DNA of 53,817 nucleotides, from assembly GCF_027011145.1 (NCBI RefSeq), contig NZ_JALVAO010000062.1, positions 1 through 53,817 of the forward strand, given 5' to 3'. Position 1 is the stretch's first letter, and the number at the start of each line of letters is the position of its first letter. Shown piece after piece: positions 19,803 through 22,647 of this stretch. Origin of the DNA: Thermococcus sp. Lineage in GTDB: Archaea; Methanobacteriota_B; Thermococci; Thermococcales; Thermococcaceae. Both the position numbers and the translations under genes were made by a program. A model generated the notes under the pieces. It was not told the origin of the DNA. It did not search any database and was given only the letters and a program-made list of their open reading frames with translations.

Positions 19803-21656
19803 TCACTCCTTCGCGAGCTCCGCAATGTACTTCATGAGTGCCTCAGCGGCAACCCTGGTTTCGTTCCTGGTGGCACCAGCGACTATGACAACGTCGTAGC
19901 CGCCGAGAGCCTTCGGAAGGTACTCGACGTCACCGGGGCTCTTGTACCAGTCAACCTTACTGATGTTGTGCTCAACAAGGTACTTGGTGACGCTGTTGGC
20001 GACAGGACCGCCGACAAGGATAAGGTTGCTTCCTGGGTCGCTAATGTTGATCTCGTAGTCCATGTAGACTATCGGCTGGGTAACCGGCTTGGGCACGATT
20101 GTGGTTGTGTAGATTCCCTCAATGGTGTAAGCGCTGTCAGGAAGCTGGTCACCGACCTTGAGCTCCTTCTCTATGACCTTGCCCTCCTTCTCCTTGAGGC
20201 AGATGTAGGCGTAGGCAACTATGAATTCCTTGCCTTTGGGAGCAGTGACGAACTCGCCACTGGCGGGGTTGTAGTACTCGGTGTAACCCTTCTGGACGTA
20301 CTTGTACTTGAGGTCGTAGACGCCGAAGACGTCAATTGGGTTGCCCTCGAGGGTCTTGTCGTTGACGAGTGTTATGTTGGTGATGTATCCATCATTTGTT
20401 TTAACGGTAGCGTTCCATCCTTCGGCCGGGTGGAAGACCGGACCGAGAACCTGGATGTCATATTCAGCGGAAATACTGGCAATGATGTGGTTGTCGATAC
20501 CAACGAAGGTGTCCTCGAGGGTAAGCACGAGGTCGGCCCTGTTGCCAGCGGCAGCAAGGCTGTCGTAGGTCTCGACCTGGCCGTTCTCCTCGAGGAAGTA
20601 GACTGACTCGCCCTTGTTGAGGATAACCTGACCGGTCTGGGCACCTGTGGCAGCGTCCTTGACTATGACGAGAGCCCTCGTCTCCTGGAGGTTGATGTCG
20701 AGGACAGTAACGACCCAGTTGGTTCCTGGTATGGTCTTGCTCTGGCCAACTTCATACCACATGGGGTTGTCGGCTGGGATCATGCCAGCGGTGAAGGTGT
20801 CGTTTCCAACCTCAAGGACGTGATAGCTCTGACCAAACACTGTAAAGTCCATTCCAGCGCTAACTCCCGGGAAGACCTCGCTGACTATAGTTCCACCGTT
20901 TGCTGCAACTTCCTCGGCATCGCCGATGTAGTACTTAGTAACGTTTTTGGTTATCTCTGTAGTGCCCCACTCTGGCTTGCCAAGAGTAATTTTCTCTGTG
21001 GTAGTAACGCTGTAGTTGTAGAGGACGTAGTCAACGAGTATGTTGAGCTTACCGGGAGCAACGACGAGGTCAGCCTTCTTCGGCGGAGCGGTCATGTTCC
21101 ATTTAGTGGGGTCAAGGCTCTTGAGCTCGGGGTTAGCAATCGTAACGTGCCAGTCAACGCTGTACTTGCCAGCCTTGTCCTTTCCGGTCAGGGTAACGGG
21201 AACCTCAAAGGCGCTCTCCCACTCGGTGTAGTTTGCGGTAAAGGCAGCACCGTTCCACCAGTAGTCAGCCGGAAGCTGGTCGTAGCTGGTGGCCCAGCTG
21301 GTTATGTTGCTTATTCCGTGGTCAACAGTTATAGTTGTGTAGTTGTAAGCGTAAATTGTCCACATAGCCTCGGTAGCGGGAGGAATGACCTCTTTAACCT
21401 TAACGTATGCGTTCTGAGCTTCAACCTGCTGGGTTGTGTAGAGCAGGCTTCCAAGGGCAACGGCTATGTCAGCGGCGCTCGCAACATCCATAGCAGCGGC
21501 ATTGCTTCCAACCACGATTTTAACGTTCGGAGTACCATCAGACTTAACGAAGAAGCTCTTCGGAATGTTCGGAACAGTGGTAGCACTGGCAAAGCCTATG
21601 GTTGCACCAATCATTGCGGCACCAACGGCGAGTGCCGCGATCTTCTTCACCTTCAT
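19803..21656 (-). CDS. slp: S-layer protein
   Basis: 617 residues. A cleavable signal peptide (MKVKKIAALAVGAAMIGATI, cleavage probably after ...FASA, residue 25) and at least ten N-X-S/T sequons mark it as a secreted glycoprotein. The C-terminal block with LILVGGPVANSVTKYL and YDVVIVAGATRNETRVAAEAL is typical of Thermococcales/methanococcal S-layer proteins; the N-terminal part, with VKIVVGSNAAAMDVASAADIA, is the matching S-layer N domain. It should form the two-dimensional lattice outside the cell membrane. The strong promoter and protected leader fit very high expression. Confidence 0.93.
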   Translation of the reverse strand: MKVKKIAALAVGAAMIGATIGFASATTVPNIPKSFFVKSDGTPNVKIVVGSNAAAMDVASAADIAVALGSLLYTTQQVEAQNAYVKVKEVIPPATEAMWTIYAYNYTTITVDHGISNITSWATSYDQLPADYWWNGAAFTANYTEWESAFEVPVTLTGKDKAGKYSVDWHVTIANPELKSLDPTKWNMTAPPKKADLVVAPGKLNILVDYVLYNYSVTTTEKITLGKPEWGTTEITKNVTKYYIGDAEEVAANGGTIVSEVFPGVSAGMDFTVFGQSYHVLEVGNDTFTAGMIPADNPMWYEVGQSKTIPGTNWVVTVLDINLQETRALVIVKDAATGAQTGQVILNKGESVYFLEENGQVETYDSLAAAGNRADLVLTLEDTFVGIDNHIIASISAEYDIQVLGPVFHPAEGWNATVKTNDGYITNITLVNDKTLEGNPIDVFGVYDLKYKYVQKGYTEYYNPASGEFVTAPKGKEFIVAYAYICLKEKEGKVIEKELKVGDQLPDSAYTIEGIYTTTIVPKPVTQPIVYMDYEINISDPGSNLILVGGPVANSVTKYLVEHNISKVDWYKSPGDVEYLPKALGGYDVVIVAGATRNETRVAAEALMKYIAELAKE

Positions 21657-21709
21657 TTCACAACACCTCCTTAAGTTGTTGGGCTAAAGCCCCATCTAAG
21701 TGTTGTCAC
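21657..21709 (-). promoter_or_regulatory. slp: 5' leader of slp with nested stem-loops
   Basis: On the minus strand ACAACAC (21700-21706) can pair with GTGTTGT (21660-21666), which overlaps the ribosome binding site AAGGAGGTG. Inside the loop a second hairpin GGGCTTTAGCCC (21681-21692) is perfect. The predicted transcription start lies near 21707-21709, placing the outer stem at the very 5' end of the mRNA. Confidence 0.55.
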
Positions 21710-21727
21710 TGTCATTTGGGACTCAAA

Positions 21728-21745
21728 GGGTATATATACTTTTCG
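21728..21745 (-). promoter_or_regulatory. slp: strong slp promoter (BRE + TATA)
   Basis: On the minus strand CGAAAAGTATATATACC is a textbook BRE followed by an eight-base alternating TATA box, the best promoter in the window, in keeping with the abundance of S-layer protein. Confidence 0.8.
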
Positions 21746-21768
21746 CTTTCAGACCCTTTCACTGACCG

Positions 21769-21776
21769 AAAAAAGC
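21769..21776 (-). terminator. T6 tract upstream of slp promoter
   Basis: GCTTTTTTCGG on the minus strand lies between the 269-residue gene and the slp promoter and is suited to end transcription coming from upstream. Confidence 0.4.
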
Positions 21777-21849
21777 TCGCCAATTGCCGTAAATGATAAA
21801 AGAAAGCTTAACTAAATGCCTATGGCAAATTCGCCTTTTGCCGATAATA

Positions 21850-22647
21850 TCATTGGTTCGATATCAGAGCCCGCCTAACAGGCCTGCTGGTAAGCTCATT
21901 AACAAAGCCACCAATGTCAGTCAATGCGTTCTGAAGCTCTCCTGCGGTTACGTCTATTATCTCCGGCTCGATTATGGATATTGCAACGGGTGCATACTTT
22001 CCAACAAGCTGGAACAGTGTCTCGAAAGTAGACAGAAGCTCTACCGCCAGAAGCCCCTTAAACTCTCCAGCCTCTTCAGAGCCCTCAACAGCCAGCACGT
22101 TTATCAGGCATCCCTCTATTGAAAGCGCCTTTTTCATGATCTCTTCAACTGATTCCTTGTCTTTGCCTGAAACTTCGATTACAAGACGATAACGGATAAG
22201 CCTGTCGTCGAGAATCATTGACTCAATCTCCTCCCTTGAGTAGCCAATCCTGGGCTCTGGAACGTCGCTAAGGTCAGGATACGCCGCAAGACTTCCAAAC
22301 CTGTTCATTAACTTCCCCATTACGAGTGCAACTTCACCAAGGACTTTCATAAGTTCCTTTGAGTCTAGCTCCAATTTTCCAGGGGAGAGAATCTCCACAA
22401 TGGCGGGTCCGTATTTTAGAACGGCCCTGACGAGTTCGCCAAAAGTCCCCGCTACCTTTGCTTCAACCACGCCAGAATACTTCAGGAGCTCATCCTCGTT
22501 CTCAAGTATGTCCTCAACGTGAACGTCCTTAACCTCGACCAGAGTTTCCCCTTTCAACTCATTCACGATATTCTCTATAGCGCTTTCCAAAGCTTTCTTG
22601 TCGTTGGAAAGGCCTTCAATATAGAAAATCGCCTCAATCTTTTCCAT
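21850..22647 (-). CDS. uncharacterised protein with internal duplication
   Basis: 265 residues from ATG 22645-22647 (MEKIEAIFYIEGLSNDKKAL), which follows GGTGGTGA at the end of amrS; a start at 22659 overlapping amrS is also possible. The protein contains two related halves: a beta-alpha opening (IEAIFYIEGLSNDKKALESA / YRLVIEVSGKDKESVEEIMK) and a shared later block (LKYGPAIVEILSPGKLELDS / GKYAPVAISIIEPEIIDVTA) ending in similar helices. No family recognised, soluble. It follows the AmrS-like gene directly, so they are probably co-expressed. Confidence 0.75.
   Translation of the reverse strand: MEKIEAIFYIEGLSNDKKALESAIENIVNELKGETLVEVKDVHVEDILENEDELLKYSGVVEAKVAGTFGELVRAVLKYGPAIVEILSPGKLELDSKELMKVLGEVALVMGKLMNRFGSLAAYPDLSDVPEPRIGYSREEIESMILDDRLIRYRLVIEVSGKDKESVEEIMKKALSIEGCLINVLAVEGSEEAGEFKGLLAVELLSTFETLFQLVGKYAPVAISIIEPEIIDVTAGELQNALTDIGGFVNELTSRPVRRALISNQ

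Follow-up and report, generated by a model that had tools for sequence, protein, structure and literature searches.

In the window analysed here, that is, the whole 53,817-nt stretch of Thermococcus sp. DNA, the S-layer gene slp lies on the minus strand, and the DNA just ahead of its start codon can be read as an RNA that folds back upon its own Shine-Dalgarno sequence. This raises the question whether the slp mRNA begins with a dedicated structured leader, and whether such a leader would gate translation, protect the mRNA or support its expression.

The slp gene and its predicted leader

Gene slp (19803..21656, minus strand, with its ATG at 21656) encodes an S-layer protein of 617 aa. The product passes the cut-off of the curated NCBIfam family TIGR01564 (S_layer_MJ) with 183.4 bits against 25, and matches PDB entry 9fsa_A (E 4.4e-16). 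Upstream of the gene, a TATA box TATATATA is read at 21731..21738 (minus strand). A sequence-only reading of this DNA had called it the strongest TATA box in the window, which is reasonable by string counts (AAAAGTATATATA occurs once, and TATATATA at one other place, 49790), and had set it 25 bases upstream of ACAACAC, which is indeed the distance from the TATA end.

The transcription start was predicted by a rule in which a TG step is sought 23-26 nt after the TATA match. Such a step was found 24 or 25 nt after the match in all of the 72 loci compared below, window included (25 in 59, 24 in 13). From this constant spacing we infer that +1 lies at G21707 (minus strand; T at -1, G at +1), 51 nt ahead of the ATG, which gives slp a predicted leader of 51 nt. 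By the same rule, the start of the T. kodakarensis gene (TK0895/csg) would be expected at the G of TGACAACAC. Leaders are reported to have a median length of 16 nt in T. kodakarensis (PMC4247193) and 12 nt in T. onnurineus (PMC5316973). Since leaders in the genus are mostly short, a 51-nt leader is in itself uncommon.

Read 5' to 3' on the minus strand, the leader is G21707-ACAACACUU-AGAUG-GGGC-UUUA-GCCC-AACAACUUAA-GGAGGUG-UUGUGAA-AUG. The pairing previously noticed, ACAACAC (21706-21700) with GTGTTGT (21666-21660) around a nested GGGC/GCCC, was borne out at the positions given for it. It can be extended to ACAACACUU/AGGUGUUGU, an outer stem of 9 bp with one G-U. The 5' arm of this stem (21698..21706) begins at +2, and its 3' arm (21660..21668) overlaps the Shine-Dalgarno sequence GGAGGTG (21664..21670), so that 5 of the 7 nucleotides of the latter fall within the stem. 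The inner hairpin (21681..21692), which comparison of leaders marks as the conserved core, is made of GGGC (21692-21689), the loop UUUA and GCCC (21684-21681). RNA folding pairs ACAACACUU with AGGUGUUGU and GGGC with GCCC, the outer arms being also read from the clade alignment, and we infer a similar fold in the cell.

Taken alone, the leader of the window is only mildly unusual against chance. Its fold had a z of about -2.1 to -2.3 in three of four spans, where 3-7 of 200 shuffles folded equally well, and of -1.1 in the 81-nt span (31/200). A genome background was provided by a sample of 463 ORF starts preceded by a Shine-Dalgarno sequence, drawn from 454 kb made up of 400 kb of the relative G025 and the window. 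Among these starts, the slp leader has a folding energy close to the median and an opening cost for its Shine-Dalgarno sequence at the 75th-90th percentile; both are ordinary, and the notion of a strikingly stable leader was rejected. A promoter was predicted for 80 of the 463 starts and a leader of 30-80 nt for 19, slp included. The longest 5'-arm match among these 19 is that of slp (9 bp, the next being 7), and a hairpin precedes the Shine-Dalgarno sequence in five of them. The case for more than chance rests on the relatives, above all for the inner hairpin.

The inner hairpin in related genomes

Homologues of slp were found in 82 of 94 genomes of the family. Leaders were taken from 81 slp-like loci, G036 being left aside (match without the N-terminus). 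Nine loci (L032-L035, L040-L042, L047 and L049) were excluded for other N-termini or for having no such promoter, and the 72 kept comprised 63 outside genus g3, with 54 distinct leaders, and nine of g3, which we take to be Pyrococcus. The g3 leaders were kept out of the alignments. Genome G024 corresponds to T. kodakarensis, as its locus L057 alone of the 81 matches both published csg primers exactly.

The inner hairpin is present in all 54 distinct leaders outside g3. Under a fixed rule based on the loop-side ends of the G run and the C run, both runs were found in 56/56 distinct leaders, namely these 54 and two leaders of a diverged S-layer-like gene described below. The closing pair was CG in 35, UA in 11 and UG in 7 of the 56, and unpaired in 3. 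It was thus paired in 53 leaders, compared with a shuffle mean of 45.9, and the two runs were of equal length in 45, compared with 29.7; each value was reached by 0 of 5000 shuffles, counts that are not probabilities, since the leaders are mutually related. When one leader was taken from each of the ten clusters, the closing pair was paired in 10/10, yet 356 of 5000 shuffles reached the same, and the runs were equal in 7/10 (reached by 132 of 5000). The covariation of the inner hairpin can therefore be described as moderate over all leaders and weak with one leader per cluster. In the cleanest of the alignments, that of 34 sequences, the closing pair is CG in 18, UA in 8, UG in 2 and other in 6. 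RNAalifold predicted the inner hairpin in this group and nothing else; the outer stem was not predicted.

The position of the hairpin is tied to the Shine-Dalgarno sequence. Over the 54 aligned leaders, in which GGAGGTG is invariant, the distance from the hairpin to GGAGGTG is 6-11 nt (sd 1.2), compared with 12-26 nt (sd 4.5) to the predicted start, and the loop is 3-6 nt long. A spacing held to the Shine-Dalgarno sequence and not to the start favours an RNA role linked to the former, and disfavours an operator fixed relative to the promoter. This place is not universal, since in g3 a GCCC/GGGC hairpin starts from +3 in 7 of the 9 leaders and is missing in the other two.

The outer stem and the covering of the Shine-Dalgarno sequence

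In the clade of the window (13 distinct leaders), the outer stem hardly varies: A-U has become G-U in two leaders, the end pair is lost in two, and there is one gap. No covariation test can thus be drawn from this clade. In the 34-sequence group, the outer stem in its shorter form, CAACAC/GUGUUG, is paired in 90.1% of cells. The changes kept in this outer helix are one-sided G-U types (20 cells), and pairing fails in another 20 cells, of which 16 belong to the two outermost pairs; at columns 3/58, 9 of 34 leaders no longer pair. The sequence-only reading held that the leaders of close relatives should not break the stems without compensation. The closest relatives do keep the outer stem, but more distant ones break it with no compensating change, as at columns 3/58. 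When the whole structure of the 34 sequences was scored, inner hairpin included, 92.3% of cells were paired, compared with 90.9 in shuffles and 17-49% when the structure was slid. Its covariation score was reached by 0 of 500 shuffles, and all eight double-changed cells lie in the inner hairpin.

Coevolution of the two outer arms was rejected by a swap test over ten clusters, in which own arms gave -8.6, swapped 3' arms -8.7 (p 0.92) and swapped 5' arms -8.3 (p 0.56). When paired with the 3' segment, own 5' arms do better than shuffled ones in 10/10 clusters (mean z -0.69, p 0.002), while the energies of whole leaders in these ten clusters showed no significant gain over shuffled 5' arms (p 0.11). 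Folds of the g4 leaders and of L036 and L037 of g2 display a terminal stem of other letters, with its 3' arm just upstream of the Shine-Dalgarno sequence. Paired by eye, these stems read AAUACC/GGUAUU in g4, and AGACCUU/AAGGUUU and GACUUU/AAAGUU in g2; a single double change, C-G to U-A, separates the two g2 stems. In L066, the remaining g2 leader, no clean stem is seen at the terminus. From these comparisons, the terminal stem itself may be what is wanted.

At 37 °C, GGAGG is calculated to be unpaired with a probability of 0.23 to 0.98, depending on the cluster (0.85 in the g4 cluster, 0.98 in the L036 cluster and 0.41 in the L066/L037 cluster). Judged from these leaders, conservation does not extend to the covering of the Shine-Dalgarno sequence. 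The effect of temperature was estimated with an extrapolated nearest-neighbour model, which ignores real salt, proteins and RNA modification. According to this model, the outer stem is formed at 0.82 at 70 °C, 0.43 at 80 °C and 0.17 at 85 °C, being half melted between 75 and 80 °C, and the inner hairpin at 0.85, 0.69 and 0.52 at the same three temperatures, while GGAGG is unpaired at 0.42 at 37 °C, 0.54 at 70 °C and 0.71 at 85 °C. The earlier suggestion that covering of the Shine-Dalgarno sequence could gate translation found no support as a conserved function: the covering differs between clusters, the opening cost falls within the common range of the genome's starts, and growth temperatures leave the stem marginal.

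An alternative pairing of a second segment, ACC.UCCU, with the Shine-Dalgarno sequence was also considered in the 34-sequence group. In that helix 81.1% of cells are paired, with four double-changed cells. The paired share of the resulting structure is no better than that of shuffles (92 of 500 reach it), and its double-changed cells number 12, compared with 5.2 in shuffles, 8 of the 12 being in the inner hairpin.

Specificity of the leader

Two leader models were searched against the 94 genomes with stricter filters, under which weak matches may be lost. Model R1 (E<=0.01) gave matches in 52 genomes, 51 of them at slp and one, in G020, only at EF-1alpha; model R2 (E<=0.1) gave matches in 50, of which 46 at slp and 4 at a diverged S-layer-like gene. 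Every R1 match better than 0.005 and every R2 match better than 0.014 lies at slp.

The diverged gene belongs to four g4 genomes in which the homologue search had found no slp (G075, G078, G079 and G082), where the slp promoter and leader precede a gene for a protein of 488-500 aa (L120-L123). The L120 product, the one tested, is like the slp product in its signal peptide, and part of its C-terminal region resembles the S-layer domain (BLASTP 27.3 bits, E 0.001); against TIGR01564 it scores 16.9 bits, below the cut-off of 25. A wider leader regulon was rejected, as the matches beyond slp and this diverged gene are marginal only. They lie before EF-1alpha (G020), a Mrp-type ATPase gene (G055), a gene for a 203-aa protein without NCBIfam match (G050 and G060) and a CyaB-type protein gene (G086), with one more in G092. 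The leader of the 203-aa protein (L126:291-352, and L127) has ACATCAC/GTGATGT arms around a CCCAC/GTGGG hairpin, which is the slp layout. An in-frame TGA seen in many slp matches proved to be the normal stop codon in the four checked.

DNA motifs upstream of slp

Upstream of the leader, three further motifs were found on the minus strand. M1 (ATTATCGGCAAAAGGCGAA, 21830..21848) is present with at most one mismatch in 78 of 94 genomes; it has one further place in four genomes, that of the window among them, and a backward control also gives scattered matches. M3 (TTACGGCAATTGGCGAGCTT, 21773..21792) occurs in 65 of 94 genomes, and M4 (AAAGGGTCTGAAAGCGAAAAGTAT, 21736..21759), which runs into the BRE and TATA box, with at most two mismatches in 77 of 94, both at one place each and with 0 control matches. 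M1 and M3 have CGGCAA..GCGA in common, and their spacing is 53 bp in 56 and 54 bp in 11 of the 72 loci, a motif being missing in the remaining five. We know of no regulator for the CGGCAA..GCGA motif. The three motifs centre on slp across six genera. M1 and M4 are also carried by G081 and G084. They are unmatched in nine genomes, each at least 94% complete (G019, G020, G021, G030, G033, G042, G056, G067 and G072). Seven of these nine have a 36-39% identical slp homologue with another N-terminus, and G020 and G072 have none.

As a control, the region upstream of EF-1alpha was examined by its identity to the genome of the window over 25 genomes, g2 and g3 being left out. It is as conserved as that of slp (mean identity 0.81 and 0.79, respectively), and the idea that the slp upstream region is uniquely conserved was rejected. 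The last 50 nt before EF-1alpha reach 0.86, against 0.75 for the slp leader. A palindrome, CTAGTC-N5-GACTAG, lies 41-25 nt before the EF-1alpha ATG in 21 of the 26 loci read (L129-L158; spacer of 4-6 nt allowed), with matched changes in two loci (CTACTC/GAGTAG). By TATA spacing, counted by eye, it is mostly upstream of the EF-1alpha start, so that matched changes alone are no proof of an RNA structure.

Possible function of the slp leader

A structured leader on slp is supported by the TATA-start spacing in 72/72 loci, the inner hairpin in 56/56 leaders and the restriction of strong model matches to slp. Data from T. kodakarensis bear on its direction of action. In that species, as reported in PMC4247193, slp (TK0895) comes 10th in one library and 9th in another when ordered by reads per ORF, and PMC4549637 calls the csg fragment a strong constitutive promoter. 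Located by the primers published there, this fragment spans M1 to GGAGGTGTTGT, leader included, and a repressing leader does not fit with its strong, constitutive activity. The slp leader is thus probably not an off switch, and the rank of slp together with the csg fragment points to a leader that would support rather than gate expression. Among the matches listed, a literature search of titles and abstract starts gave no account of a structured slp/csg leader in Thermococcales.

The explanation that we tentatively prefer, though at a little under even chances, is that the slp mRNA begins with a dedicated leader of about 50 nt which is conserved and structured, belongs to a slp-specific control region and supports high expression. 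The constant part of the leader is its small G+C hairpin, placed 6-11 nt before the Shine-Dalgarno sequence; this hairpin might keep the landing stretch before that sequence defined and free of other pairing. In the clade of the window, a terminal stem of 8-9 bp from +2 would enclose the hairpin and, by loose pairing, take in the 3' half of the Shine-Dalgarno sequence, possibly shielding the 5' end until the ribosome opens the stem. The 5'-UTRs of Sulfolobus acidocaldarius alba, slaA and slaB are reported to raise the protein yield of a reporter (PMC11627041). They likewise belong to genes of abundant archaeal proteins, S-layer genes among them, but the alba UTR is given there as 14 nt long, whereas the slp leader has 51 nt and a hairpin.

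Protection of the mRNA by a 5'-terminal hairpin is possible from the modelled folds, although we consider it a minority chance as the main explanation. The terminal stem would leave G+1 alone unpaired and slow 5'-to-3' decay of an abundant mRNA. The E. coli ompA 5' leader is such an mRNA-stabilising terminal hairpin, and both leaders belong to the mRNA of an abundant surface protein and have a stem, predicted in slp, that lies at the 5' end or close to it and ahead of the Shine-Dalgarno sequence. The slp leader differs in being archaeal and shorter, and in its outer stem overlapping the Shine-Dalgarno sequence in the clade of the window. The predicted start at 21707, which puts pairing at +2, agrees with protection, as do the better pairing of own 5' arms than shuffles in all ten clusters, the terminal stems of other sequence in two genera (g4 and g2) and the g3 hairpin from +3. 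Nucleotides +2..+9 are paired at 0.89 in the cluster of the window and at 0.85 and 0.72 in two others (37 °C), but at 0.37 in the largest cluster and 0.03 in L020. Moreover, the spacing of the conserved hairpin is steady towards the Shine-Dalgarno sequence but varies towards the 5' end, and L066 of g2 departs from the pattern. A translation gate or RNA thermometer, in which the outer stem would mask some of the Shine-Dalgarno sequence until heat or a signal opens it, seems distinctly improbable. Bacterial RNA thermometers have a stem that touches the Shine-Dalgarno sequence and melts with heat. The slp leader shares such a stem, with predicted melting in the growth range (from 70 to 85 °C in the model above), and the leaders of the 34-sequence group have, besides, the alternative ACC.UCCU pairing described above. 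Unlike in thermometers, however, the covering of the Shine-Dalgarno sequence is partial and not conserved, this sequence being free in the g4 and L036 clusters. The modelled gain in GGAGG exposure is small, the opening cost is within the ordinary range of the 463 starts, and the promoter-leader fragment is used as strong and constitutive according to PMC4549637.

The inverted repeat and the conserved +1..+8 might instead act at the DNA level, as the target of a dimeric regulator or as the first transcribed stretch of a very strong promoter, which we regard as unlikely. The conserved upstream motifs centred on slp would agree with this, and so would the EF-1alpha palindrome, whose matched changes mostly lie upstream of the start. 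An operator should nevertheless hold its distance to the TATA box and its spacer, while the slp repeat varies by 14 nt in its distance from the start and by 3-6 nt in its loop; the TATA-to-start spacing, by contrast, is constant at 24-25. Less probable than any of the foregoing is an autoregulatory or protein-binding site, at which a cell protein such as L7Ae, Alba or the S-layer protein itself would bind the hairpin and set translation. The confinement of strong leader matches to slp is in keeping with this. A precedent is the archaeal L7Ae mRNA, whose k-turn leader is reported to be bound by L7Ae (PMC6298567); it resembles the slp leader as an archaeal leader stem-loop thought to regulate translation, but it belongs to a different gene. 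Against such a site, Rfam release 15 gave no match at the gathering threshold in the window and none at E<=1 in 21600-21900.

On a broader view, the supportive leader could be one part of a dedicated slp cassette in Thermococcaceae, made of a pair of CGGCAA..GCGA boxes with a spacing of 53-54 bp, an extended BRE/TATA, a constant start and a ribosome-positioning leader hairpin 6-11 nt before the Shine-Dalgarno sequence. This cassette would pass on as one unit and persist in genomes whose S-layer protein can hardly be recognised any more, a proposal that we consider less likely than not. If the leader does support expression, part of the output of a top-expressed archaeal gene would be owed to a small conserved RNA fold, at temperatures where short stems are marginal, and the hairpin in the csg cassette, with which proteins are produced in Thermococcus, could be deliberately tuned or broken. 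The slp leader would also offer a clean, testable case of archaeal ribosomes meeting structure just ahead of a strong Shine-Dalgarno sequence. As a minor observation, a three-codon reading frame, AUG GGG CUU/CUG UAG (21684-21695, minus strand), runs across the inner hairpin in L001-L005 only.
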